Positions 1,409-33,981 of a stretch of DNA of 64,000 bases are shown here, piece after piece; within the stretch, counting starts at the first letter, position 1, and each line of letters starts with the position of its first letter. The translations under genes were made by a program, and so were the position numbers. Origin of the DNA: Chryseobacterium sp. G0162 (GTDB lineage: Bacteria; Bacteroidota; Bacteroidia; Flavobacteriales; Weeksellaceae); NCBI RefSeq assembly GCF_003815715.1, contig NZ_CP033922.1, positions 2,262,001 to 2,326,000 of the forward strand. Reading direction: 5' to 3'. The notes under the pieces are model-generated. The model was not told where the DNA came from, did not search any database, and saw nothing but the letters and a program-made list of their open reading frames with translations.

Positions 1409-2680
1409 TCAATGAAACCTAAAATTAGCTTCCGGCAGCGTATTCTTTTTTAAGAAAGCTTCATATTCCGGAGATAGCTGGGCACGGCCAAAAGTATTTT
1501 CACCGCTCATGCTTCCCAAACGTACTTTATCCTTTCCGAATTTCCGGTTCATGGCATCCATCGCCTTCATTACAGGAAGATGTTGATTTTGTGTATCTTC
1601 TTCAAAAAGGCTGATCTGTCTCTGATCTTCAGGAACAAAGTCATTTACCATCACCCCTGCCCTTTTATAATGAAATCCGTCTCTGTAAACGGCTTCAAAA
1701 AGCTCATTGACGACCCTTCCAATCAATATAGATGAATTGGTTGGATTGGGAAGAATTTGGGTCATAGCATTTCTGTATTCAGGAAGGTCCTTTCTAAAAC
1801 GATTTGTTTGTACGAAAACAGTAATCATTTTACAGCAGGTATTTTGCTTTCTCAATCTTTCTGAACAGTACATTCCAAAGGTTTCTACGCGTTCCCTAAC
1901 GGATTCTTTATCGGTAAGCATTTGCATAAAGCTTCTGGTAACAGCAATTGATTTTTTAGGAGATGGAGCATCCAGTTCCAATTGACGAATTCCTCTTAAT
2001 TCATGAATCATCCTTACCCCATGAATTCCCATAATTTTCCGAACCCACATTTCAGGTTTCTGAAGAAGGTCCCAGGCTTTATAAACACCATTATCATTCA
2101 TTTTAGCAGCCAGCTTTCTCCCTATTCCCCAAACGTCTCCTATATTCAGCCATTTCAATGCCTTCTCTATTTTCTCAGGAGTATCCATAATATAAACTCC
2201 CTTACATTGCTCCGGAAATTCTTTCACAATTCTGTTAGCCACTTTACATAAGGTTTTACTGGGTGCAATTCCTATACTGACAGGAATATTTTCTTTCTCC
2301 TGAATTTCTGTTTTGATTTTAGAACAATACTCGTGAATGTCAATATATTTAAAGCCTGTAAGATCTAGAAAAAGCTCGTCTATACTATAAATTTCATACT
2401 CTAAAACATAAGAACGGGCTATATTGATTACCTGTTGACTCTTGTAATTGTACAGTTCAAATTTTGCAGAAAAGCTTTTTACATCGTGCTGCTTGAAGAG
2501 CTCTTTATATTTGAATGCAGGAGCTGCCATAGGAATTCCGAGATCCTTTGCCTCCTTACTTCGAGACACTACACATCCATCGTTGTTGGAAAGAACAACA
2601 ACAGGTTTGCCTTCAAGATCAGGATCCAGGGTCCTTTCGCAGGAAACAAAAAAGTTATTACAATCTACCAGCGCATACAT
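1409..2680 (-). CDS. umuC: Y-family DNA polymerase (UmuC, Pol V catalytic subunit-like)
   Basis: This 423-aa protein is full length for UmuC and would copy past damaged template bases. The palm metal ligands are Asp6 in VDCNNFFVSCE and Asp101-Glu102 in SIDELFLD. The steric-gate and finger regions (VVVLSNNDGCVVSRS) are present, followed by the HhH thumb and a little-finger domain (about 240-350) with the UmuC C-terminal extension. No umuD (S24 peptidase) gene adjoins it, which is unusual because umuDC is normally one operon. Its own -7 box (TAATTTTG, 2703-2710 on the minus strand) lacks the repeat found in the neighbouring cluster, although one copy of that repeat lies about 90 bp upstream. 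Probably damage-inducible, but that is inference. Confidence 0.93.
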   Translation of the reverse strand: MYALVDCNNFFVSCERTLDPDLEGKPVVVLSNNDGCVVSRSKEAKDLGIPMAAPAFKYKELFKQHDVKSFSAKFELYNYKSQQVINIARSYVLEYEIYSIDELFLDLTGFKYIDIHEYCSKIKTEIQEKENIPVSIGIAPSKTLCKVANRIVKEFPEQCKGVYIMDTPEKIEKALKWLNIGDVWGIGRKLAAKMNDNGVYKAWDLLQKPEMWVRKIMGIHGVRMIHELRGIRQLELDAPSPKKSIAVTRSFMQMLTDKESVRERVETFGMYCSERLRKQNTCCKMITVFVQTNRFRKDLPEYRNAMTQILPNPTNSSILIGRVVNELFEAVYRDGFHYKRAGVMVNDFVPEDQRQISLFEEDTQNQHLPVMKAMDAMNRKFGKDKVRLGSMSGENTFGRAQLSPEYEAFLKKNTLPEANFRFH

Positions 2681-2798: not shown

Positions 2799-2832
2799 CG
2801 ACATATTTTGTCGCATTAAAGATTTAATTTTG
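2799..2832 (+). promoter_or_regulatory. Operator/promoter module P1 (orphan, points into the antiporter 3' end)
   Basis: CGACA (2799-2803), spacer TATTT, TGTCG (2809-2813): a perfect inverted repeat. After exactly 11 nt comes TAATTTTG (2825-2832), a perfect TAnnTTTG box. Its orientation (ACA before, TTTTGTCGCATTAA after) matches P7 of the WYL gene. It therefore points right, antisense to the antiporter gene, with no plausible ORF behind it. It also lies 119 nt upstream of the umuC start on the other strand, so a symmetric operator could influence umuC. Confidence 0.6.
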
Positions 2833-2850
2833 TTTTCAAAAATATCCATT

Positions 2851-4431
2851 TTAAATCATTCTTAACCTTTCCTCTTCCAAATCAAGCTGATAAAGCTGAT
2901 GACGAATAATCTCTTCATTGATTGAAACATCTTTATTGAGCTCTGAAAGATACTGTCTCTGGCTTTCCAGTATTTCAAGGAAAATAACTTTGTTTTTTTC
3001 ACTCATCCATTCTGCGTCATTTGCTTTATTTTTTTCTTCCCAGTGTTTTAACATGCGTTCCAAACCGGCGTGGCTTTGGAGCTCATTTTCATGCTTATTT
3101 TTAAGAAAATGATATACATGCTGCCTTAGTTTCAGTTTTATTTCCTGACGGACTTCCTCCTCTTTTTCTTCATCAATAAAATCATCAAATACATGCCCGA
3201 ATCTTATAATGTATGGCAACGTGAGCCCTTGCACAAGGAGCGTAAGCAATATCACAACAAAGGTGATAAACAAAATGAGATTTCTATTGGGGAAAGGAGC
3301 CCCGTTAATACTGATAGGAATCGCCAGTGCTGCCGCCAACGACACCACGCCCCTCATCCCAGTCCACCCTAAGATGAGAGGCATCATCAGACGCCTTCTG
3401 TTGGAGGAAGGTCTGGGAGCTACTCCAGGCCGAAAAATAATTGTAGCAATCATTGCGGCATAGGAACTGATAATTCTTGCAGCGATAAGAATACCTGTAA
3501 CCAGTACTCCATAATTAATTGCTGTATTTAAAGGGATTCCCTCTGAACGCAACCCTCCTACAATTTCGGGAAGTTCCAAACCTATGATTAAAAATACAAT
3601 TCCATTCAGAATAAATACAAAGCTCTCCCAAACGCTGTATCCTCTGATCCTGCTTGTACTGCTTAAAAAAATTAATCGTTTACTCGACATATACAAACCA
3701 CCACACACCACAGCCAGCACTCCGGAACTATGAAACTGTTCAGCTAACCAATACATAAGATAGGGTTCGATAAGCGTTAAAGCAATATCCGAAGATGCAT
3801 CTGTTGGCAAACGTTTATGAATTTGCACAAAAATCCAGGCCAGTAGTAATCCGAGGCCTGCCCCACCGACGATCATCCATAAAAAAGTAAGAGAGGCCTC
3901 CTGCCATACAAACTGCCCTGTACCAATAGCAATTAATGCAAAACGGAAAATAATCAACGAAGATGCATCATTTAATAAACTTTCTCCTTCCAGAATAGCA
4001 GAGGTTGTTTTAGGAATTCTCACAAATTTCATGATAGCTCCAGTACTTACCGCATCAGGAGGGGAGACTATTCCTCCCAGCAAGAAACCTAATGCAATGC
4101 TAAATCCGGGAATAAAATAATTGGAAACAACAGCAACGGATAAAGCCGTAAAAAATACGACCAGAAATGCAAAGCTTCCGATAATTCGCCACCATCTTCT
4201 CATTTCTTTAAAGGAAATAGACCATGAGGCTTCAAATAATAAAGGAGGCAAGAAAATAAAAAAGATGAGATCAGGATTAATTTTTACGGTAGGAAGACCG
4301 GGTACCAAACTAACAAGTAATCCAAACACGACCAATAAAATAGGATAGGCTATTTTTAATTTTGTAGCCCACATATTTAATAGTACAATAGCGGCTATCA
4401 TAGCCAAAAAGAAAGGTAAGACGGTATGCAT
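2851..4431 (-). CDS. Na+/H+ antiporter, CPA1 (NhaP/NHE) family
   Basis: This 526-aa inner-membrane protein exchanges Na+ (or K+) for protons. About twelve hydrophobic segments fill residues 1-410. The CPA1 ion-binding motifs are visible: SPPDAV (Asp126) and EGESLLND (Asn154-Asp155). The final ~110 residues form a charged cytoplasmic tail rich in Glu/Lys with heptad-like spacing, probably regulatory. It starts at ATG 4431; a -7 box TATATTTG on the minus strand (4498-4505) lies about 70 nt upstream. The gene stands alone between umuC and the cluster starting at 4680. It is not obviously part of that cluster, but promoter module P1 reads into its 3' end antisense. Confidence 0.92.
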   Translation of the reverse strand: MHTVLPFFLAMIAAIVLLNMWATKLKIAYPILLVVFGLLVSLVPGLPTVKINPDLIFFIFLPPLLFEASWSISFKEMRRWWRIIGSFAFLVVFFTALSVAVVSNYFIPGFSIALGFLLGGIVSPPDAVSTGAIMKFVRIPKTTSAILEGESLLNDASSLIIFRFALIAIGTGQFVWQEASLTFLWMIVGGAGLGLLLAWIFVQIHKRLPTDASSDIALTLIEPYLMYWLAEQFHSSGVLAVVCGGLYMSSKRLIFLSSTSRIRGYSVWESFVFILNGIVFLIIGLELPEIVGGLRSEGIPLNTAINYGVLVTGILIAARIISSYAAMIATIIFRPGVAPRPSSNRRRLMMPLILGWTGMRGVVSLAAALAIPISINGAPFPNRNLILFITFVVILLTLLVQGLTLPYIIRFGHVFDDFIDEEKEEEVRQEIKLKLRQHVYHFLKNKHENELQSHAGLERMLKHWEEKNKANDAEWMSEKNKVIFLEILESQRQYLSELNKDVSINEEIIRHQLYQLDLEEERLRMI

Positions 4432-4497
4432 TATGTTGTGTTTTTTGATTTATACTCTTCATTTATTTTTTCAAATCAATGAAAGGAGTTTATTATA

Positions 4498-4505
4498 CAA
4501 ATATA
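4498..4505 (-). promoter_or_regulatory. -7 box of antiporter promoter
   Basis: The minus strand reads TATATTTG, a perfect TAnnTTTG element, leaving an untranslated leader of about 60 nt before the ATG at 4431. Confidence 0.5.
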
Positions 4506-4626
4506 CAGTCAATTAAAATTTTGAATATTATTTTTATGATCTTATCCAAACTTAATTCACAACCTTGTAAAAACAATAAAATAACTAAGATTATAAAAAA
4601 TATTGGTGTAAAAATTTATTAAAACA

Positions 4627-4660
4627 CGTCAGTTTTTGTCGCTTCCCACTCCTACTTTTG
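4627..4660 (+). promoter_or_regulatory. Operator/promoter module P2 (M15 endopeptidase)
   Basis: CGTCA (4627-4631), spacer GTTTT, TGTCG (4637-4641), then 11 nt, then TACTTTTG (4653-4660). The ATG of the endopeptidase follows at 4680, so the leader is only about 13 nt. The geometry is identical to P1, P3-P5 and P7. Confidence 0.75.
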
Positions 4661-4679
4661 CCTCAAACGATATAGATTT

Positions 4680-5180
4680 ATGGATAAAGTAACATTAGAG
4701 AGAATTCAGAAACTTCACCCATTTGTAAGAGATGAAGTAAAGCAAATGATTAAAGAATGTGATGAAGCGCTTACCGGCAGAGCTAAGATAAGAATTACCC
4801 AAGGATTAAGATCTTTTGAAGAACAGGAAAAGCTTTATGCCATCGGAAGAATAACATCCGGAAAAAAGGTAACGAATGCCAAAGCAGGTCAGAGTATCCA
4901 CAATTATGGTCTTGCTGTAGATATCTGCCTGATGATCGACGGAAAAACGGCCAGTTGGGACACTGTAAAAGATTGGGATAATGATAAGGTTGCAGACTGG
5001 TATGAATGTGTAAAAATCTTTGCAAAACATGGCTGGGATTGGGGTGGAAACTGGAAAACTTTTAAAGATCTTCCCCACTTTGAAAAAAAGACAATTCCAT
5101 CGAAGAAAGGACCTGTAAAAACCAGTTGGAGAAAGCTTTTGAAGATGTCTAGAGATCAACAAAATTATGTTGTTTTTTAA
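4680..5180 (+). CDS. M15 family cell-wall peptidase (L-Ala-D-Glu endopeptidase / endolysin-like)
   Basis: This 166-aa protein resembles the M15 L-alanyl-D-glutamate peptidases (CwlK and phage T5-type endolysins), which cut the stem peptide of peptidoglycan. The zinc ligands fit: SIHNYGLAVD supplies His74 and Asp81, and LPHFE supplies His133; the GLRSFEEQEKLYAIGR segment is also typical. There is no signal peptide or membrane segment, so the protein should stay cytoplasmic unless the inner membrane is breached, as for phage endolysins that need a holin. It is transcribed from P2 immediately before the patatin gene, which has its own promoter P3. In this cluster I infer a role in induced lysis. 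A wall-remodelling role or an unrecognised export route is the alternative. Confidence 0.85.
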   Translation: MDKVTLERIQKLHPFVRDEVKQMIKECDEALTGRAKIRITQGLRSFEEQEKLYAIGRITSGKKVTNAKAGQSIHNYGLAVDICLMIDGKTASWDTVKDWDNDKVADWYECVKIFAKHGWDWGGNWKTFKDLPHFEKKTIPSKKGPVKTSWRKLLKMSRDQQNYVVF

Positions 5181-5208
5181 TTTTTTTTCTTTAAAATTAA
5201 TTTAAATA

Positions 5209-5242
5209 CGTCAAGTTCTGTCGCTTCCCCGCCCTACCTTTG
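5209..5242 (+). promoter_or_regulatory. Operator/promoter module P3 (patatin gene)
   Basis: CGTCA (5209-5213), spacer AGTTC, TGTCG (5219-5223), then 11 nt, then TACCTTTG (5235-5242). The expected leader before the patatin ATG at 5371 is about 120 nt and holds a 22-codon ORF. Confidence 0.75.
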
Positions 5243-5280
5243 TTTTACAAGAAAGCCACTACAAGCAACAAGATCTGAAC

Positions 5281-5349
5281 ATGGAGTTTCACTGTTTTTC
5301 TGACCCCAAATTACCAATTCCACAAGATCATATTGTAATGTATTCTTAA
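5281..5349 (+). CDS. Possible 22-codon leader ORF upstream of the patatin gene
   Basis: An ATG-to-TAA frame encodes MEFHCFSDPKLPIPQDHIVM then YS, entirely inside the transcribed leader between P3 and the patatin gene. I see no homology, signal peptide or membrane segment. It could be a translated leader controlling the downstream gene, or chance in a short AT-rich leader. Low certainty. Confidence 0.2.
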   Translation: MEFHCFSDPKLPIPQDHIVMYS

Positions 5350-5370
5350 AAAAATAATTAACAAAATAAC

Positions 5371-6408
5371 ATGAAAAAGACAACCATTCTTTCTTTGGAC
5401 GGAGGCGGAATAAGGGGAATTATTACCTGTATTATTCTGCGTTACATAGAAGAACAGCTCCAGTATTATGATAAACCAAGTGCTAAGCTTGGGGATTATT
5501 TTGATCTGGTGGCTGGCAGCAGCACAGGAGGACTGATTGCTTCTATTATTCTATGTCCTGATGAAGTCCGTAAAGCAAAATATTCTATCCAAAAGGGATT
5601 GGAATTATATGCTGAAAAGGGCGGTGATATCTTCCAGGTTTCCTTTTGGGAAAAGCTGGTTAATCCATTTGGATTATTGAATGAAAGAATTTCTCAGGAA
5701 GCTCTTGAAAAAAACCTGAATGACTTTTTTGGAAATTTAGAATTAAAGGAATTAATAAAGCCATGTTTAATAACAAGTTATGATATAGAGAACAGAAGAG
5801 CGAAACTTTTCAATTCCTGTGAAGCTCATCTCAGTACAGATAATTTTTATGTAAAAGATGTTTGCAGGGCAACATCCGCAGCACCTACCTATTTCAGCCC
5901 GGTACAGATCAAATCAATGTATGGCCAAATCTTCAGCCTGATTGACGGCGGTATGTTTGCGAATAATCCTGCTCTTTGTGCTTATGCAGAGGCTAGAAAA
6001 ATTCCCTTTGCAGAAGTTTTGAAAAATCATCAGAAAGCCAATCATCCCGGAGTAAATGATATGATTATCATATCTATCGGAACCGGAATTGAAGCGAGGC
6101 CTTATTCTTTTCATAAACTCGAAAAGGCTGGAAAAATTGGCTGGGTAAATCCCATTATTGATATTTTAATGTCTGCCAATGCAGAAACCGTAGATTATCA
6201 GCTTTCTCAAATGTTCCAGACCTTGGGGCTGAGAAACCAGAAAAACTATTACCGTTTGAATCCCTCATTGAAAAACGCTTCTCCAGCCATGGATAACGTA
6301 AGACGGTCTAATATTGAAAACCTGATACAAGCCGGACTAAGCTATATTGATGATAACAGAGAAGTCCTGAACCAGATTGTCCAAAAGCTCATCAGAAACA
6401 AAATATAA
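5371..6408 (+). CDS. Patatin-like phospholipase (CapV-like)
   Basis: This 345-aa protein is a single patatin domain, a Ser-Asp dyad lipid acyl hydrolase. The oxyanion loop DGGGIRG is at residues 10-16, the nucleophile is Ser51 in GSSTGG, and the catalytic Asp192 is in IDGGMFANNP. SAAPTYFSP is also conserved in the family. The closest sub-type I recognise is the CapV effector of CBASS anti-phage systems, which degrades the inner membrane. However, no CD-NTase cyclase, Cap2 or Cap3 gene is present here. There is no signal peptide, so it should act on the inner membrane from the cytoplasm. It is controlled by P3 and ends in a very long hairpin. In context I infer a stress-induced membrane-damaging enzyme; a housekeeping lipase is the alternative. 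Confidence 0.9.
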   Translation: MKKTTILSLDGGGIRGIITCIILRYIEEQLQYYDKPSAKLGDYFDLVAGSSTGGLIASIILCPDEVRKAKYSIQKGLELYAEKGGDIFQVSFWEKLVNPFGLLNERISQEALEKNLNDFFGNLELKELIKPCLITSYDIENRRAKLFNSCEAHLSTDNFYVKDVCRATSAAPTYFSPVQIKSMYGQIFSLIDGGMFANNPALCAYAEARKIPFAEVLKNHQKANHPGVNDMIIISIGTGIEARPYSFHKLEKAGKIGWVNPIIDILMSANAETVDYQLSQMFQTLGLRNQKNYYRLNPSLKNASPAMDNVRRSNIENLIQAGLSYIDDNREVLNQIVQKLIRNKI

Positions 6409-6454
6409 GCTTAAAAGCTTATATTGAACTTAAATAAGCTTTTAAGCTTATATT
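6402..6454 (+). terminator. 21-bp hairpin at the end of the patatin gene
   Basis: Arm 6402-6422 and arm 6434-6454 are perfect inverse complements around an 11-nt loop; each arm is itself nearly self-complementary around AAGCTT. The patatin stop codon (6406-6408) lies inside the left arm. AT-rich sequence follows but no long T tract, so it may terminate, protect the 3' end, or both. Confidence 0.6.
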
Positions 6455-6540
6455 AAAATTCTCACTGAATTAAAACACTTGACCTTGTCAGTTTATAATA
6501 TTTATCAAAAATGAAATAAAAATGAAAAGAAATTATAACA

Positions 6541-6574
6541 CGACAAGTTTTGACGCTTGAGTCAACTATCTTTA
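6541..6574 (+). promoter_or_regulatory. Operator/promoter module P4 (DUF2589 operon)
   Basis: CGACA (6541-6545), spacer AGTTT, TGACG (6551-6555), then 11 nt, then TATCTTTA (6567-6574; last base differs from TAnnTTTG). The ATG of the first gene is at 6765, giving a leader of roughly 185 nt in which I see no other clear element. Confidence 0.7.
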
Positions 6575-6764
6575 AATAAATAAAATAACCAAGGAAACCA
6601 AAGCTAAATAAGCTCATTCCAAACTTACATTATCCCTATTATTTTTAATAATCTTCAGTTAATCAAATACTGAACAGGATATCTATTGCCCAATATTGAA
6701 TATTAGTCTGCTAGCACTACTATATATTATTAACCAATTAATAACCTTAAAAATTTTTAGAATT

Positions 6765-7352
6765 ATGGCAAATTTAGTACAAGAATTAAACAGTTTAGAT
6801 TTCAGTGTTTACATCGGAGGACCTATGCAGGCAGCGATCAAGGCTCAGCATGACGCATCCATGTCGCAAGTAAATTTCATTAAAGAAGTTGGCTTTGAAG
6901 AAGGAGCACCAGAAGGAGGCGCTAAAAAACTTAAGTATGTGGATTTTATCTATACAAAGTCAGTTCCCAGCACAGCTGAAAACAATGACAGCGTAGTAAA
7001 ATCAGAAGTAAAATTAAGTGTCCCATTGCTTTGTATGCTGACAATTCCGGCTTTAAGAATTGATGAAATGACTATTGATTTTAATGCCAAACTTAATTCT
7101 GTGGAAACTCAGAATATTGCTAGTGAATTCCAGGGAAGCGCTTCTATCAGCGCTAAATTCTGGAAAGTTAAATTCAATGCTTCAGCTTCTTATAAGAAAA
7201 CCAACTCAAGTACCTCAACTACGGAAAAAACATATACGTTGGGCGTACATGTAAAAGCTGTAAATGACGAATTACCTGCAGGGCTTTCAAAAATTATGGA
7301 TATGTTAGAAGATGCTATTGTTGCTTCCGCAGCACCGGTAACTACTACTTAA
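6765..7352 (+). CDS. DUF2589-like protein
   Basis: This 195-aa protein of unknown function matches my recollection of the DUF2589 family. It has an N-terminal GGPMQAAIKAQHDASMSQVNFI helix followed by a beta-rich core (VKLSVPLLCMLTIPALRIDE, then MTIDFNAKLNSVET) and an ASYKKTNSSTSTTEKTYTL strand region. I chose the ATG at 6765 because an upstream extension to 6696 is AT-rich and unlike the family start. There is no signal peptide. It is the first gene of the P4 unit. A strong hairpin separates it from its two downstream partners, so it may be made in excess over them, as expected for a structural or pore-forming subunit (inference). Confidence 0.75.
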   Translation: MANLVQELNSLDFSVYIGGPMQAAIKAQHDASMSQVNFIKEVGFEEGAPEGGAKKLKYVDFIYTKSVPSTAENNDSVVKSEVKLSVPLLCMLTIPALRIDEMTIDFNAKLNSVETQNIASEFQGSASISAKFWKVKFNASASYKKTNSSTSTTEKTYTLGVHVKAVNDELPAGLSKIMDMLEDAIVASAAPVTTT

Positions 7353-7360
7353 TTATTTTC

Positions 7361-7390
7361 AGGATGGTTGCTCCGGCAGCCATCCTTTTA
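7361..7390 (+). terminator. Intra-operon hairpin / attenuator
   Basis: Stem AGGATGGTTGC (7361-7371) pairs with GCAGCCATCCT (7376-7386) through one G-U pair, around a TCCG tetraloop, followed by TTTT. It lies 9 nt after the DUF2589-like stop and 37 nt before the next ATG, so it probably causes partial termination inside the operon. Confidence 0.6.
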
Positions 7391-7422
7391 AAAAGTCTTT
7401 ATCAATTAAAAAAAAACTTATC

Positions 7423-8106
7423 ATGCCAAAATTGAATGAATATTTAGGAGGTATTGTCTCTGAAATTGCAGCAGCCAGAAAAATGACAGACTTACAGACT
7501 GTACAAATTGCAAAAGAATATGCTAAAGATGATTTATTGAAACATTTTTCCATTCCAAGAATGAAAGTGGGGACGGTAGACCTTACTATTCCTTTTGCTA
7601 CAGCAGGAAGCTCCCCTATCTTGCTTTTCAGAGATTTTTCTTATGAAGAAATTACCAAAGTTGCCTCAACGGATTATAATCCTTCTGACACAAAAAATGA
7701 TCAGAGTTTAAGAAATTTTTTAGCCAATCAGGAGCTTAGTTATAATGATTATATAACGAAGATCAAAGCTGAAAACAAACCAACCCTTACCGATACTCAA
7801 ATACAGTATTTTGACCCTATTTCAAAATATACAGTAGAATACTGTCGTTCCCTTCCCAATTTTACATGGAAGAATACAGATCCCCAGTTTTTACAGCAAA
7901 GCCTTTTCAACAGGATTGTTTTGGAAGCCAGAAGAGTTATTGAAAAGATAGATAACCGGGAGATTATTGTAGAGGCAAGCAAATTGATGCAACTGGATGC
8001 CAAATGCCTGATTTTCGCTAAAATGAGTGTGAGTGAAGCAGGAATGGAGTGGTCGAGATATGAGGATATCAATGGAAATATTATAGAAACGCTTATCCCT
8101 GAATAA
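7423..8106 (+). CDS. Conserved partner of DUF2589-like protein, function unknown
   Basis: This 227-aa protein has no domain I can name with confidence. The N terminus (MPKLNEYLGGIVSEIAAARK, then an IAKEYAKDDLLKHFSIPRMK segment) resembles proteins I recall being encoded beside DUF2589 genes. It contains KVGTVDLTIPFAT, a beta segment comparable to the VKLSVPLL strand of the upstream protein, and then a charged, largely helical C-terminal half. There is no signal peptide or membrane segment. It sits in the P4 unit after an attenuator and 4 nt before the next gene, which suggests translational coupling. A complex with the upstream DUF2589-like protein is inferred from the order only. Confidence 0.6.
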   Translation: MPKLNEYLGGIVSEIAAARKMTDLQTVQIAKEYAKDDLLKHFSIPRMKVGTVDLTIPFATAGSSPILLFRDFSYEEITKVASTDYNPSDTKNDQSLRNFLANQELSYNDYITKIKAENKPTLTDTQIQYFDPISKYTVEYCRSLPNFTWKNTDPQFLQQSLFNRIVLEARRVIEKIDNREIIVEASKLMQLDAKCLIFAKMSVSEAGMEWSRYEDINGNIIETLIPE

Positions 8107-8110
8107 TAGA

Positions 8111-8665
8111 ATGAAAAAGTCACAGTTTATTTTAGTTTCCCAGTTAAAGGATCAGCTGCTAGAATTTCCAGCTATTGTTTCTTCGTTGGAGAAAAAAGAT
8201 CCTTTTTTTGTTGAGAAAATGCTTTCATGGCTGAAGTCTGTAGAGAATATTCTTTCTACGAACACCATTAGTGAAGTTTCGGAAATAGCCGGTTTCAGAA
8301 GTAAGATCCTGGCAGGTAAAATCAGTGATGAAAGAAGTTTTAATGCTAAAAAAAACCAGCTCAAGGTTACCGCAAATCTTCTTCACGATGCACAAAACTG
8401 TGTGCTTAATGTGTTACTGCCTCATGAAACAAAAATGAATGAATGCAGAGATATCACCAAGCAAATCCTGGCTTTAGCAGCACAAACAACAAACCCGCTT
8501 TATACTTCAGAAATAACATTTGAAGATTTTGTACAGAAAGTCTGGTCCCATATCCTTTCTGATAATGATTTAAAATTAGGAGGCATCAAACTCAAATCAA
8601 TGCTTTCTGAAATGGATATCATTATGCTTATTGCTGATGAAATAGATATTAACGATTTTTCTTAA
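8111..8665 (+). CDS. Helical hypothetical protein, third gene of the DUF2589 unit
   Basis: This 184-aa protein is not recognised. The composition predicts almost all alpha-helix (FVEKMLSWLKSVENILSTN, then KSMLSEMDIIMLIADEIDI), without signal peptide, membrane segments or catalytic motifs. The start lies 4 nt after the preceding stop, so it is co-translated with that gene, and a strong terminator (8672-8700) follows the stop. It is probably an accessory or structural component of whatever the DUF2589-like pair forms. Confidence 0.55.
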   Translation: MKKSQFILVSQLKDQLLEFPAIVSSLEKKDPFFVEKMLSWLKSVENILSTNTISEVSEIAGFRSKILAGKISDERSFNAKKNQLKVTANLLHDAQNCVLNVLLPHETKMNECRDITKQILALAAQTTNPLYTSEITFEDFVQKVWSHILSDNDLKLGGIKLKSMLSEMDIIMLIADEIDINDFS

Positions 8666-8671
8666 AAACTA

Positions 8672-8707
8672 AAATAACTCAAAATTCTTTTGAGTTATTT
8701 TTTTATA
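8672..8707 (+). terminator. Terminator of the DUF2589 unit
   Basis: AAATAACTCAAAA (8672-8684) pairs with TTTTGAGTTATTT (8688-8700) around TTC, followed by a T-run. It directly precedes module P5. Confidence 0.8.
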
Positions 8708-8741
8708 CGTCAAGTTTTGACGCCACCCTCGATTACCTTTG
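8708..8741 (+). promoter_or_regulatory. Operator/promoter module P5 (acidic small protein)
   Basis: CGTCA (8708-8712), spacer AGTTT, TGACG (8718-8722): a perfect inverted repeat, then 11 nt, then TACCTTTG (8734-8741). Confidence 0.75.
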
Positions 8742-8869
8742 AAATATAAACAAGAGCACAAAAACAATTAATAAAAAACTTTAAAAAGCCTTTGAATTCA
8801 ATATTGATCTATGCTGAGCAGCCTAAAATATGTTCAAAACACAACCAACACCAAATCACAATACAAAAC

Positions 8870-9040
8870 ATGGAAACATCCAATCACAATACAGATATAC
8901 TCTTCGATGAAGATCTCTACACCGTGGAATGGAGTGACATCGAAAATGCAGAGATGGATTATGAAAACTATCTCAATGACATTGAAAATTTCTTCAGACA
9001 AGATTTTGATGAAGATATCCTTGAAGAAGATCCCTTTTAA
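8870..9040 (+). CDS. Very acidic 56-aa protein
   Basis: From the ATG at 8870 the product is 56 aa (METSNHNTDILFDEDLYTVE and on to FDEDILEEDPF). Roughly two fifths of its residues are Asp or Glu and it has almost no Lys or Arg. A TTG at 8792 would add 26 residues without adding anything family-like, so I prefer the ATG. It is driven by P5 and has its own leader of about 120 nt. No homologue is recognised. Small, strongly acidic proteins can mimic DNA (phage Ocr, Arn, UGI), so a DNA-mimic or inhibitor role is worth considering but is pure inference. An overlapping basic frame (8811-9044) is judged a shadow. Confidence 0.55.
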   Translation: METSNHNTDILFDEDLYTVEWSDIENAEMDYENYLNDIENFFRQDFDEDILEEDPF

Positions 9041-9049
9041 ATAAAAATA

Positions 9050-9083
9050 TGACAAGTTCTGATGCTGTCCGCCATTACTCTCT
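9050..9083 (+). promoter_or_regulatory. Degenerate operator/promoter module P6
   Basis: TGACA (9050-9054), spacer AGTTC, TGATG (9060-9064), then 11 nt, then TACTCTCT (9076-9083). It is weaker than the other modules in both halves and in the -7 box, but spacing and the flanking C are the same. It would transcribe 9090 to the terminator at 9290-9318. Confidence 0.4.
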
Positions 9084-9086
9084 ATC

Positions 9087-9325
9087 ATGCGCCCAGCAGT
9101 CTCATTAAACATTCTCAACACCTTTGAATCATCATTCACAAAATGTTGGACAGCCAGAACGATGTCTGAAAATATAACACACCTGTGGAAATTCGGCCTA
9201 CGACCACATAAAACAAGGCCTAAGATCCTGAAGCGATCTTGTAAAGCTTCAAATTAATATTTATTCTGAAAATAAATATTAGAATATTGAATAAGCCACA
9301 GGGTTTCTGTGGCTTATTATTTTTC
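9087..9325 (+). ncRNA. Candidate small structured RNA or 56-codon mini-ORF
   Basis: Between P6 and a strong terminator lies about 235 nt with several nested inverted repeats: AAGATC 9222-9227 with GATCTT 9235-9240, GAAGC 9230-9234 with GCTTC 9246-9250, and AATATTTATT 9256-9265 with AATAAATATT 9271-9280. The same stretch has an ATG-TAA frame at 9087-9257 (56 codons, starting MRPAVSLNILNTFESS), basic and Cys-containing, without recognisable family. Either a regulatory RNA or a small protein mRNA could be made; I cannot decide. Confidence 0.3.
9290..9325 (+). terminator. Terminator before the WYL gene
   Basis: AATAAGCCACAG (9290-9301) pairs perfectly with CTGTGGCTTATT (9307-9318) around a 5-nt loop, followed by ATTTTTC. 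It closes the unit that starts at P6 and insulates P7. Confidence 0.8.
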
Positions 9326-9352
9326 AAACTTCATCACAAAAAAAATAAAACA

Positions 9353-9386
9353 CGACACGTTTTGTCGCATTAAGCCCATATATTTG
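9353..9386 (+). promoter_or_regulatory. Operator/promoter module P7 (WYL regulator; autoregulation)
   Basis: CGACA (9353-9357), spacer CGTTT, TGTCG (9363-9367): perfect inverted repeat, then 11 nt, then TATATTTG (9379-9386). The regulator ATG follows at 9404, a leader of about 11 nt. The element in front of the regulator's own gene is the main reason to propose that this protein binds all copies. Confidence 0.75.
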
Positions 9387-9403: not shown

Positions 9404-10324
9404 ATGAAGAAAGATTTTTATCTGACAAGATATGCCTTAATTATTAAAAGACTAGAAAGTTCTCCGGCTACCTATTCCCAGTTGGAAGACTATCTATTAA
9501 ATTCTTTTGAATTCCAGGATGCCGGGATCAAAAGTTATTCTATCCGTACCTTGCAGAGAGATATTCGTGAGATTTCCGACCTTTTCAACCTTTCCATTCA
9601 CAATAAGAAAAAAGGCGACAACCGGTATTATATTGAAAGCCGCCCCATCATGGAAGTGGATGAGTATAACCAAAAACTTTTGGAATCTTTCCAGGTAAGC
9701 AACGCCCTGAATCTTCACCCTGATTTTTCAAATTTTATTTTCTTTGAAAGCCGTAAACCAACCGGCATAGAGCATTTTTATGATTTGTTCTTTGCCATCC
9801 GTAACAAAAGAGTGGTCACTTTTGAACATTACAATTACAAAAATAAACTGATGACTTCCCGAAAGGTCCATCCTTTGGCTTTAAAAGAATCCAAAGACAG
9901 ATGGTATCTTATTGCGATTGACACTAAGGATAAAATTTTAAAATCGTTTGGACTAGACAGAATCAATTATCTGGATGTGGCTAAAAATCAGTTCAGAGAA
10001 AAGTATAAATATAACTTCAGAGAGCATTTTAAAAATGCTTTTGGAGTGATGAATCTGGCAGAACAAAAGCCGCAGAATATTGTATTAAAATGCAGCCGCC
10101 ATCAGGGAGAATACATTAGAAGCTTCCCGCTTCACCAGTCACAAAAAGAGACTAAAGAAACTCCGGAAGAGATCTATTTTGAGTTTTTCCTTCATCCTAC
10201 TTATGATTTCATGCAGGAGATTTTATCCTATGGAAAAGAAGTCACCGTGCTAGAACCGAAAGGTTTAGTTGACGATATCCGCAACCATCTTCAGGAATCC
10301 CTAAATCGCTATCTTGAAAGTTAA
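9404..10324 (+). CDS. WYL-domain transcriptional regulator
   Basis: This 306-aa protein has an N-terminal winged helix-turn-helix with the recognition helix SYSIRTLQRDIREISDLFN (about 44-62). A WYL domain follows, whose signature Trp167-Tyr168-Leu169 lies in DRWYLIAID, with conserved basic positions in SRKVHPLALKES and LDRI. The C-terminal WCX region covers about 215-300. WYL regulators such as BrxR, CapW and PafBC sense a ligand (nucleic acid or nucleotide is suspected) and control defence or DNA-damage genes. I chose the ATG at 9404 because the in-frame GTG at 9386 overlaps the -7 box of P7 and could not be transcribed from it. Very likely the regulator of the P1-P7 modules and self-regulated (inference). 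Confidence 0.9.
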   Translation: MKKDFYLTRYALIIKRLESSPATYSQLEDYLLNSFEFQDAGIKSYSIRTLQRDIREISDLFNLSIHNKKKGDNRYYIESRPIMEVDEYNQKLLESFQVSNALNLHPDFSNFIFFESRKPTGIEHFYDLFFAIRNKRVVTFEHYNYKNKLMTSRKVHPLALKESKDRWYLIAIDTKDKILKSFGLDRINYLDVAKNQFREKYKYNFREHFKNAFGVMNLAEQKPQNIVLKCSRHQGEYIRSFPLHQSQKETKETPEEIYFEFFLHPTYDFMQEILSYGKEVTVLEPKGLVDDIRNHLQESLNRYLES

Positions 10325-11529: not shown

Positions 11530-11724
11530 ATGAAAAAGTTAACCAGAAAAGAAACAGCTAAAATCAATGGTGGAATCGCACCGGGACAATGCTTTTACAC
11601 TGATCCTAATACAGGCAAGAGAAAACTTGGATGCCAATTAGGACCCATTCCAGACTGTTGTGGAGGATGGATTTATCCAAATCCTGAATACGCATGCCAG
11701 CCATGTACAGTTACTGATCTTTAA
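11530..11724 (+). CDS. Bacteriocin-like peptide with double-glycine leader (copy 1)
   Basis: This 64-aa precursor starts with the leader MKKLTRKETAKINGG, a ComC/bacteriocin-type sequence cut after Gly-Gly by C39-peptidase ABC exporters. The remaining ~49 residues contain six Cys (QCFY, GC, CC, AC, PC), so a disulfide-knotted or modified secreted peptide is likely. The next gene is a paralogue with an almost identical leader. No exporter, immunity or modification gene is visible in the window. Such short orphan GG-peptides are common in Chryseobacterium; whether they kill, signal or do something else is unknown. Confidence 0.75.
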   Translation: MKKLTRKETAKINGGIAPGQCFYTDPNTGKRKLGCQLGPIPDCCGGWIYPNPEYACQPCTVTDL

Positions 11725-11776: not shown

Positions 11777-11962
11777 ATGAAAAAATTAGCAAGAAAAGAA
11801 ACGGCCAAAATTAATGGTGGAATCCGCCCTGATCAATGTTTTTATATTGATGACAATGGGGTAAGAAAAATCGGATGCAGAACTCAACCTTTTTTTAATG
11901 AGGATAGTGGCACATGGATCTATCCATTGAAAGAATGTGATTCATGTACAGGAGATCTCTAA
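11777..11962 (+). CDS. Bacteriocin-like peptide with double-glycine leader (copy 2)
   Basis: This 61-aa paralogue of the preceding gene has leader MKKLARKETAKINGG and a mature part sharing QCFY, a GC pair, WIYP and a C-terminal Cys-x-x-Cys, but with four Cys instead of six. The sequence just before both ATGs (TTCAAATTAAAACAA) is duplicated as well, so the pair arose by tandem duplication including part of the upstream region. A bidirectional terminator follows the stop. Export route unknown within the window. Confidence 0.75.
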   Translation: MKKLARKETAKINGGIRPDQCFYIDDNGVRKIGCRTQPFFNEDSGTWIYPLKECDSCTGDL

Positions 11963-23672: not shown

Positions 23673-25714
23673 TGCTTAACAGGTTTTTTAGCAGCGTTAG
23701 TATTCTTTTTATCCTCTTCTATTTTTTTCTGGAGCTTGGCTTTTTGTTGTTTAACAAGTTCCAGGCTATCTTTTATTCTTTTTTGTTTAATTGAATCCGG
23801 TTTAGGGTCTTTATAAAGTCCCTTGCGCTTCAAATCTGCAATCCATTGCCTTTTGTATTCCGGCATGAAACTCGAGGTAATCATTTTTTTATACAGATTT
23901 TCTCTTTTCAAATCACCGGTAATATATTTTTCAGCAATCACTGTACAAGCCGGACCTGCCCAAGTAGCTCCAAATCCAGCATGCTCCATTACCGCAACTA
24001 CAACAATTTTTGGCTTATCTGCAGGAGCAATCAATACAAAGATAGAATTATCTTTTCCTTGTGGAACCTGTGCTGTACCTGTTTTGGCTAATTGTGTAAA
24101 GTCATTGGATTTCAATCCTCTTGCCGTTCCTCTCAAAACTACGGCTTCCATACCTTTTAAAACAGGTTCAAAATGCTTTGGATCAACTAATGTTTTGTGC
24201 TTAACCTTAAATCTTGGATCGGGATTAGCCTTTCCATCAATTGCTTTTACGATATGAGGAGTATAATACCATCCTTTGTTGGCAATAGCAGCTACATAAT
24301 TTGCCAGCTGAATAGGAGTTACCAAAACATCTCCCTGCCCCATTCCATTATAGATAGCTCCGGTTGACATTTCATCCCAATTTTGGAAATCTGTTCTCTT
24401 GGAACCACTTGCCTTCATGATGGCTTTAAACCTTTTTTCGTAAAAATCTCCGGAAGGTATTCTACCCTTTGCACCCACTGCAAAGTCATTATTTAAAAAT
24501 TCTCCTACTCCAAAGCTGCTCATGATTTTTTTCCACTCATCAACACCTTTTGAGGGATTTCCCGGATACTTTTTAATAATTGCAATAAATGCATAAGTAA
24601 AGAAGCAGTTACTGGAAACCTGAATAGAAGGAATTAACGGATCAGCTCCACCATGCCCTTTAATTCTTTTACCTTTATAGAAAAATCCACCTCCACAAGG
24701 GAAAACCGTTTTTTCATCCATTACTCCCATTTGCATTGCTGCTAAGGCTGTCAATAATTTGAAAGTTGATCCTGGAGGATATCCTGCTTGCAAAGAACGA
24801 TCGAAAGTAGGTTTATTTTCATAAAGCGTATCTTTTGACAGAGCATATAAATTTTTGGATTTATAAGGTCCGGTGAAGAGGTTCGGGTCAATATCCGGTC
24901 CGGTTGCTGCCACTAATACTTCTCCATTATTAGGATCAATAGCTACAATTGCCCCATGCTTGTTGACAAGCATTTCTTCAGCGGTTCTCTGAAGGTCATA
25001 ATCAATAGTAAGAGTAATGTCTTTACCCGTAATTACATCTTTATCCAAAGATCCGTTTTTATAAGAACCAATATTTCTGAGCCTGATATCTTTTTGGATG
25101 TACTTCATTCCTTTTACTCCACGAAGTTCCTTTTCATAAGACTTTTCAACTCCTGTTTTCCCAATAAAATCTCCCGGTAAATAATAGATAGAATCTTTTT
25201 TAATTTCTCTTTCATTTACTTCACTGGTATACCCTAAAAGGTTTCCTGAAGTAGAAACTTCATATTGACGCTGAGGTCTCTGTACGATATTAAATGCAGG
25301 ATATTTAAAAATAATTTCCTGTACTCTCGCAATATCTTCCCTGCTGAGGTCCTTTAGAAATGTCATAGGAGTCAGCTTAGAATAATATTTTTCTTTCTTA
25401 ATAACATTGATTTTGTTGATGAAATCCGTTTTACTGATCTTCATCAGACTGCAAAAGCCTAATGTATCAAAATCCGGTTTCATTAAACCTTGGGTAAAGG
25501 AAATTTCATAAGCAGGCTGGTTTCCTACCATGATCTTTCCGTTTCGATCAAAAATAACTCCACGCTGAGGAATTACATATTCAATTTTGATGGAAGTATT
25601 GGCTGCATTCAGGGCATAACGATCTGTAAACAACTGTAAATACGCAAGTCTCGCCACAAAAATAAGGGCGATAACAACAAGGATGGAAAAAATTTTTAAA
25701 TAACGTGTGTTCAA
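23669..25714 (-). CDS. mrdA: Penicillin-binding protein 2 (elongasome transpeptidase)
   Basis: This 681-aa class B PBP has a single N-terminal membrane anchor (residues about 7-28), a dimerisation/pedestal domain, and a transpeptidase domain with SxxK (Ser316-Lys319 in PPGSTFKL), SxN (Ser367-Ser-Asn369) and KTGTAQ near residue 550. It cross-links the strands made by RodA during side-wall growth. The C terminus is a Lys/Gln-rich tail (about 40 residues) of unknown use. Overlaps mreD and rodA by 4 nt each, so translation is coupled. Confidence 0.95.
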   Translation of the reverse strand: MNTRYLKIFSILVVIALIFVARLAYLQLFTDRYALNAANTSIKIEYVIPQRGVIFDRNGKIMVGNQPAYEISFTQGLMKPDFDTLGFCSLMKISKTDFINKINVIKKEKYYSKLTPMTFLKDLSREDIARVQEIIFKYPAFNIVQRPQRQYEVSTSGNLLGYTSEVNEREIKKDSIYYLPGDFIGKTGVEKSYEKELRGVKGMKYIQKDIRLRNIGSYKNGSLDKDVITGKDITLTIDYDLQRTAEEMLVNKHGAIVAIDPNNGEVLVAATGPDIDPNLFTGPYKSKNLYALSKDTLYENKPTFDRSLQAGYPPGSTFKLLTALAAMQMGVMDEKTVFPCGGGFFYKGKRIKGHGGADPLIPSIQVSSNCFFTYAFIAIIKKYPGNPSKGVDEWKKIMSSFGVGEFLNNDFAVGAKGRIPSGDFYEKRFKAIMKASGSKRTDFQNWDEMSTGAIYNGMGQGDVLVTPIQLANYVAAIANKGWYYTPHIVKAIDGKANPDPRFKVKHKTLVDPKHFEPVLKGMEAVVLRGTARGLKSNDFTQLAKTGTAQVPQGKDNSIFVLIAPADKPKIVVVAVMEHAGFGATWAGPACTVIAEKYITGDLKRENLYKKMITSSFMPEYKRQWIADLKRKGLYKDPKPDSIKQKRIKDSLELVKQQKAKLQKKIEEDKKNTNAAKKPVKQ

Positions 25715-33960: not shown

Positions 33961-33981
33961 ACCCGTCAAAAAATGACGGGT
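33961..33981 (-). terminator. Terminator of rplY
   Basis: ACCCGTCA (33961-33968) pairs with TGACGGGT (33974-33981) around AAAAA, with a T-run on the minus strand. The embedded CGTCA-N5-TGACG matches the accessory-cluster operator by coincidence. Confidence 0.85.

Follow-up and report, generated by a model that had tools for sequence, protein, structure and literature searches.

Promoter modules around a WYL regulator gene

The window analysed here, a 64,000-nucleotide (nt) stretch of the Chryseobacterium sp. G0162 genome (positions 2,262,001-2,326,000 of a single 5.28-Mb contig), holds a repeated promoter-like module composed of the dyad CGWCANNTTYTGWCG and a downstream box of the form TAnnTTTG, one copy of which precedes the gene of a WYL-domain regulator. 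Exact dyads occur at 2799, 4627, 5209, 6541, 8708 and 9353, all on the + strand and spanning 2799-9367; in 100 shuffled windows the exact dyad was matched 0.02 times on average and at most once. The modules and the genes of the cluster, the regulator having a winged helix-turn-helix (wHTH), are arranged as follows (aa, amino acids).

2799..2832, + strand: module copy 1, perfect, box TAATTTTG
4627..4660, + strand: module copy 2, box TACTTTTG
4680..5180, + strand: M15 peptidase, endolysin-like (Pfam Peptidase_M15_4, 1.1e-19; phrog_2649 endolysin, 4e-30)
5209..5242, + strand: module copy 3, box TACCTTTG
5371..6408, + strand: patatin-like phospholipase (Pfam Patatin, 1.1e-25)
6541..6574, + strand: module copy 4, box TATCTTTA, one mismatch
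6765..7352, + strand: DUF2589 protein (Pfam DUF2589, 1.4e-30)
7423..8106, + strand: 227-aa protein, same operon as DUF2589, sub-threshold Pfam match only
8111..8665, + strand: 184-aa protein, same operon as DUF2589, no Pfam match, kept in the relatives' loci L041 and L042
8708..8741, + strand: module copy 5, box TACCTTTG
8870..9040, + strand: 56-aa acidic protein, no Pfam match
9050..9083, + strand: module copy 6, decayed, dyad TGACAAGTTCTGATG with two mismatches
9353..9386, + strand: module copy 7, box TATATTTG, putative WYL promoter, also conserved upstream of WYL in relatives
9404..10324, + strand: WYL regulator, 306 aa, wHTH-WYL-WCX (Pfam WYL, 3.6e-13; WCX, 9.8e-9)

An earlier note on this DNA had placed all seven copies and the WYL frame correctly, and the 26 nt that it counted between the starts of repeat and box hold in all six exact copies, which have a linker of exactly 11 nt. 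Its account of the boxes was right for the five TAnnTTTG copies and for 6541, which is near-consensus, but not for 9050, likewise called near-consensus: the letters at the box position, TACTCTCT, have three of the six fixed bases wrong, and this copy is therefore regarded as decayed. When the whole 34-nt pattern was searched with up to three mismatches, seven matches were found in the window against 0.14 expected, the seventh, at 24541 with three mismatches, being a chance-level site.

Copy 1 has no gene downstream in its direction; what it faces is an antiporter gene of the opposite strand, at its 3′ end. Sites of this type were also recognized, by eye in the neighbourhoods covered, in L043, L128, L129 and L131, and because that of L128 lacks the intervening antiporter gene and stands in tandem, 90 nt before the M15 module, copy 1 may be a stranded second promoter of the M15 gene. 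Counterparts of the 9050 copy precede tail-like and giant genes in relatives, being intact in L043 and L129 and partial in L128. The interval 9050-9353 contains only the decayed promoter and remnants, at a place where several relatives have giant genes of about 7 to 15 kb; judged by this comparison, the window's copy of the locus is a reduced version without the giant genes, and a reduced cluster also occurs in L128 and L097.

One further exact dyad match, at 33964-33978 on the - strand, lies in a palindrome without a box, as do exact matches in L003, L004 and L005. These box-less palindromic matches are probably terminator hairpins, and they inflate plain motif counts.

Rigid spacing and the link with the WYL gene

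The whole genome holds 17 exact motif matches, compared with none for the reversed control. The box follows at linker 11 in 13 of them, of which six belong to the cluster and seven are distant from it; four, the one at 33964-33978 included, lie in palindromes and have no box. Once one mismatch is tolerated, the motif does not exceed the control (37 matches versus 44), although one of these matches, a further copy upstream of the scattered M15 gene of L006, does have the box. Among 167 distinct exact sites, which precede unrelated genes and include close relatives, so that they do not represent 167 independent events, the box at linker 11 was perfect in 134 and within one mismatch in 157, while every other linker gave at most two perfect boxes; in another set of loci 49 of the 53 exact sites had the box. 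A logo made from the 157 sites extends the dyad by A-Y-A before it, G at its base 7 (84%) and Y after it. TAnnTTTG is described as the flavobacterial sigma-A box, at -12 to -5, in Flavobacterium psychrophilum (PMC9723704). Taking this position for the box, the dyad is centred near -31, and the operator overlaps the -35 region and keeps a constant distance to the -10 box, the arrangement with which we compare published activator promoters below (PMC12340889; PMC8151990).

Two variations of the module were noticed in relatives. The M15 and patatin promoters of the Cloacibacterium-type loci L052, L053 and L054 mostly carry a variant dyad of the CGACGAGTTTTGGCG type with unchanged spacing, whereas L052 and L054 retain the common form at their WYL promoter. 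In many relatives (L013-L022 and similar), a short palindromic insert, possibly a leader or a hairpin of the repetitive extragenic palindrome type, lies between the module and the WYL start and carries its own ATG mini-frame (ATGAAACGCAG...CTGC).

A WYL orthologue (E<=1e-100) was found in 71 of 197 genomes of the family, 49 in the genus and 22 outside it, and motif number tracks this gene: exact motifs amount to 10.4 per genome in the 71 bearers (control 1.7) and to 0.77 in the 126 others (control 0.71), with p = 9e-11 outside the genus and 1.6e-4 within one other genus, so that the co-occurrence check proposed in the earlier note came out in its favour. The module also stands before the WYL gene itself, in sets of loci that share species: an exact copy was seen in 29 of 30 loci; of 20 diverse neighbourhoods, 19 had it when up to two motif mismatches were allowed (L050 lacks it); and of 80 named loci, 75 had it with at most one mismatch (65 without any, 10 with one). 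The five misses are all the Chitinophagaceae and Sphingobacteriales loci, and the 75 positive loci belong to Chryseobacterium, Cloacibacterium and metagenome-assembled genomes labelled Weeksellaceae, Flavobacteriales or Flavobacterium. The genome has two more WYL-domain proteins, neither with an exact motif nearby. The WYL protein of the window matches a Chryseobacterium record at 97% identity.

The patatin gene was present in 8/8 tested WYL-bearing and 0/5 WYL-less genomes in a scan with a positive control, and in 0/15 WYL-less genomes in an earlier scan run without one. The type IX secretion system (T9SS) proteins of RHS operons persist in some WYL-less genomes, and the module was seen at one of six evaluable WYL-less RHS loci (a weak one, with two mismatches) versus nine of 13 WYL-bearing ones; this comparison comprises 20 loci among the matches listed, a seventh WYL-less locus being cut by a contig end. 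The earlier note had envisaged a compact regulon under the WYL protein, to be abandoned if the motif were spread evenly without link to the cluster. The co-occurrence and the module before the WYL gene agree with such a regulon; it is dispersed, not compact, with seven modules far away, yet it is tied to the WYL gene, and control by the WYL protein is what we infer.

Genes behind the module

In a target survey of six genomes, 82 of 83 exact sites were covered (one G043 site was left out) and the box was found at 74. These 74 modules precede cluster-type genes in 26 cases (patatin 6, acidic 6, M15 5, giant 5, DUF2589 3, tail-like 1), T9SS/RHS operons in 18, a 231-aa protein in six, WYL in five and another tail-like protein in one, with 18 targets unclassed; none of the classed targets is a repair gene. 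By these comparisons, the putative regulon is genome-wide in Chryseobacterium and relatives and often lies before toxin and toxin-delivery genes. Of the three RHS operons of the genome itself, L061 encodes Por_Secre_tail, DUF6443 and RHS repeats by domain scan, and the other two were classed by their similarity to it.

In many relatives the cluster runs in the order M15, patatin, acidic, tail-like, a 1,220-1,370-aa protein, a variable-ended protein, small genes and WYL. Three of nine variable-ended candidates scanned contain toxin domains, CdiA_C in L043 and Tox-MPTase4 in L044 and L048; L042 has a match to the immunity family SUKH-1 that stays under the cut-off. Variable C-terminal toxin ends behind a conserved part occur in the relatives only; such genes are absent from the window. 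The giant protein family (L041-L060, start region SQTLFRF) has 247 homologues at E<=0.001, and the named ones among the 120 matches listed are from Chryseobacterium; no Pfam match was found in two giant proteins tested and no NCBIfam match in one, and a homologue, P0170, bears a UniRef name for a TcA C-terminal domain, as a name only. With regard to a BREX, CBASS or similar defence operon next to the WYL gene, the neighbours seen are M15, patatin and DUF2589 genes, and in relatives also toxin-type genes; the NCBIfam CBASS_lipase model scores the patatin at 161.8 bits, under its cut-off of 200.

Among the smaller genes, the 227-aa protein adjoins DUF2589 also in L041 and L042, and the 56-aa acidic protein has a counterpart behind the module in 6/6 genomes of the survey. 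The 231-aa protein (L065, 9239-9934, - strand) has homologues in L076, L085, L096, L099 and L103, starts with MELPxYLxFNxFE or similar and has no Pfam match; the first base of its module lies about 55 nt before the start codon, once per genome in the six genomes.

A candidate activator and the alternatives

With the model of the WYL protein, a fold search gave DriD as the best match, with alignment over residues 3-306 in some rows, and the N-terminal helix-turn-helix (HTH) helices seen in the model complete the wHTH, WYL and WCX architecture; an HTH-only search of the PDB gave no match. The DriD regulon of Caulobacter crescentus likewise has a wHTH-WYL-WCX protein, a fixed distance to the -10 element and a poor -35, and the operator AYACGWC-N7-GWCGYWT resembles its published consensus ATACGAC-N7-GTCGTAT (PMC12340889). 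However, DriD belongs to another phylum, with another sigma factor and promoter box, shares only 14-20% identity with the window's WYL protein, and has didA, bapE, recJ and dnaG as named targets, in place of the RHS/T9SS genes, toxin-locus genes and regulator gene found here (PMC12340889). As an independent probe the DriD consensus had a modest outcome. Mycobacterial PafBC shares the WYL fold and has 11 nt between a TGTCG half-site and the TA of its -10 element (PMC8151990), but it is a heterodimer of which one subunit reads one half-site, whereas the dyad is conserved here, and it binds no DNA without polymerase (PMC11804915; PMC12340889). Three of the four PafB residues for single-stranded DNA (ssDNA) are alike in the WYL protein (R153, Y168, and K180 for R208), and D176 replaces R204. 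SiwR of Mycobacterium smegmatis, likewise of the WYL type, is a homodimeric activator with a 19-bp imperfect palindrome upstream of the -10 and a contact at -26, but one adjacent operon is described for it, and its motif is another, with GGA at -26 (PMC10693628).

From sequence comparison we could establish the module, its rigid spacing, its genome-wide use, its link with the WYL gene and the gene classes downstream, and the operator closely resembles the switches of known ssDNA-sensing activators. We propose, with a probability of roughly three in four, that the WYL protein works as a dimer and, in the manner of DriD and PafBC, activates its own gene and dispersed toxin-type operons. A WYL dimer would bind the operator at half-sites of about -38 to -34 and -28 to -24 and would recruit sigma-A polymerase to promoters whose recognizable sigma element is TAnnTTTG. 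It would activate its own gene, the T9SS/RHS operons and the M15-patatin-giant-toxin locus, whose products are the endolysin-like peptidase, the patatin lipase, tail-like and small acidic proteins, a giant protein and a toxin with a variable end, and which also includes genes of immunity-like character. The trigger may be ssDNA arising from DNA damage, and the products may serve as weapons against other bacteria.

Several points weigh against this proposal. PafBC and BrxR are tied in Z in the fold search, and only 50 of the 74 modules precede toxin-locus, RHS, tail-like or WYL genes; for these two reasons we do not place our confidence higher. Eight of the 71 WYL-bearing genomes have fewer than three motifs and nine of the 126 WYL-less ones have three to five, exceptions among which the variant dyad accounts for L052-L054 only. 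Moreover, the -33 TTG is rare in non-module boxes too, so its lack is weak evidence of activation.

This last point, together with the WYL fold common to BrxR and CapW and the tie of BrxR with PafBC, speaks for a repressor, whose signal-released operator would cover the -33 region of ordinary sigma-A promoters, the box alone looking like a complete -7 element. BrxR and CapW act as repressors, and we know of no dispersed, fixed-spacing regulon for either. A repressor would not require the linker to stay constant, as it does upstream of unrelated genes in 157 of 167 sites; moreover, operator and distance agree with the activators DriD and PafBC, and DriD is the best fold match; therefore we favour an activator and consider repression unlikely. 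The earlier note's background of repressed defence operons is disfavoured likewise, since the spacing is fixed, the promoters are activator-like, and RHS/T9SS operons and the toxin-type locus make up most of the classed targets, whereas BrxR and CapW, WYL-fold regulators also located at the operon they control (PMC9122589; PMC9122588), are described for BREX and CBASS defence systems.

That another regulator reads the module, with WYL as a linked target or partner, would suit the many other genes with a module upstream and the nine motif-holding genomes without the orthologue, but we hold it improbable, since the neighbourhoods read have no regulator but WYL in common (L055 and L058 alone contain an additional small HTH gene) and the dyad is similar to that of DriD, itself a WYL protein. 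Many sigma factors are autoregulated, and the rigid spacing could suggest that an alternative sigma factor, as raised in the earlier note, reads the dyad as its -33 element, with WYL being only one of its targets. This is highly improbable, because the box is the ordinary sigma-A TAnnTTTG (PMC9723704), perfect in 134 of the 167 sites, the site is a dyad, and motif number tracks the WYL gene. An SOS-type, LexA-like operator, considered for the umuC-like (Y-family polymerase) gene at 1409-2680 (- strand), 119 nt from copy 1, was dropped as barely credible, since the Bacteroidetes do possess an SOS repressor but with the motifs GGA-N5-TCC and CTAA-N5-TTAG (PMC8565304), from which the module differs, copy 1 is oriented away from that gene and the classed targets include no repair gene.

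The proposed WYL activator would employ seemingly the same operator and spacing as in another phylum, before dispersed toxin-type operons. Although WYL proteins abound, the regulons of only a few have been described, and the activators studied in depth act in DNA repair. As a tentative extension, for which we see somewhat less than an even chance, an SOS-independent, ssDNA-sensing WYL activator of Weeksellaceae may have an interbacterial arsenal as its dedicated regulon, switched on by DNA damage, for example from a rival's nuclease toxin or a phage, similar to the coupling of colicins with SOS in other bacteria. This arsenal would join dispersed T9SS/RHS toxins with a new chassis made up of an endolysin-like peptidase, a lipase and tail-like, giant and exchangeable toxin proteins. 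Polymorphic toxin systems of the RHS and CdiA type likewise have variable C-terminal toxin domains, immunity-like genes and RHS/DUF6443 proteins, but the M15-patatin-acidic-tail-giant chassis sets the present loci apart from them. The open-licence literature, with most subscription papers outside its coverage, yielded no report of this chassis or its regulator and none of a WYL-controlled toxin regulon in Bacteroidota. The module can serve as an easy query for such operons, also for those without a recognized toxin domain, supplies them with a candidate regulator and signal, and opens a direct test of whether one operator code is common to WYL activators of distant bacteria.

Downstream of the WYL gene, two small proteins (11530-11724 and 11777-11962) have a common start, MKKL(T/A)RKETAKINGG, with a double-glycine leader, presumably resembling the leaders of exported bacteriocin-type peptides.

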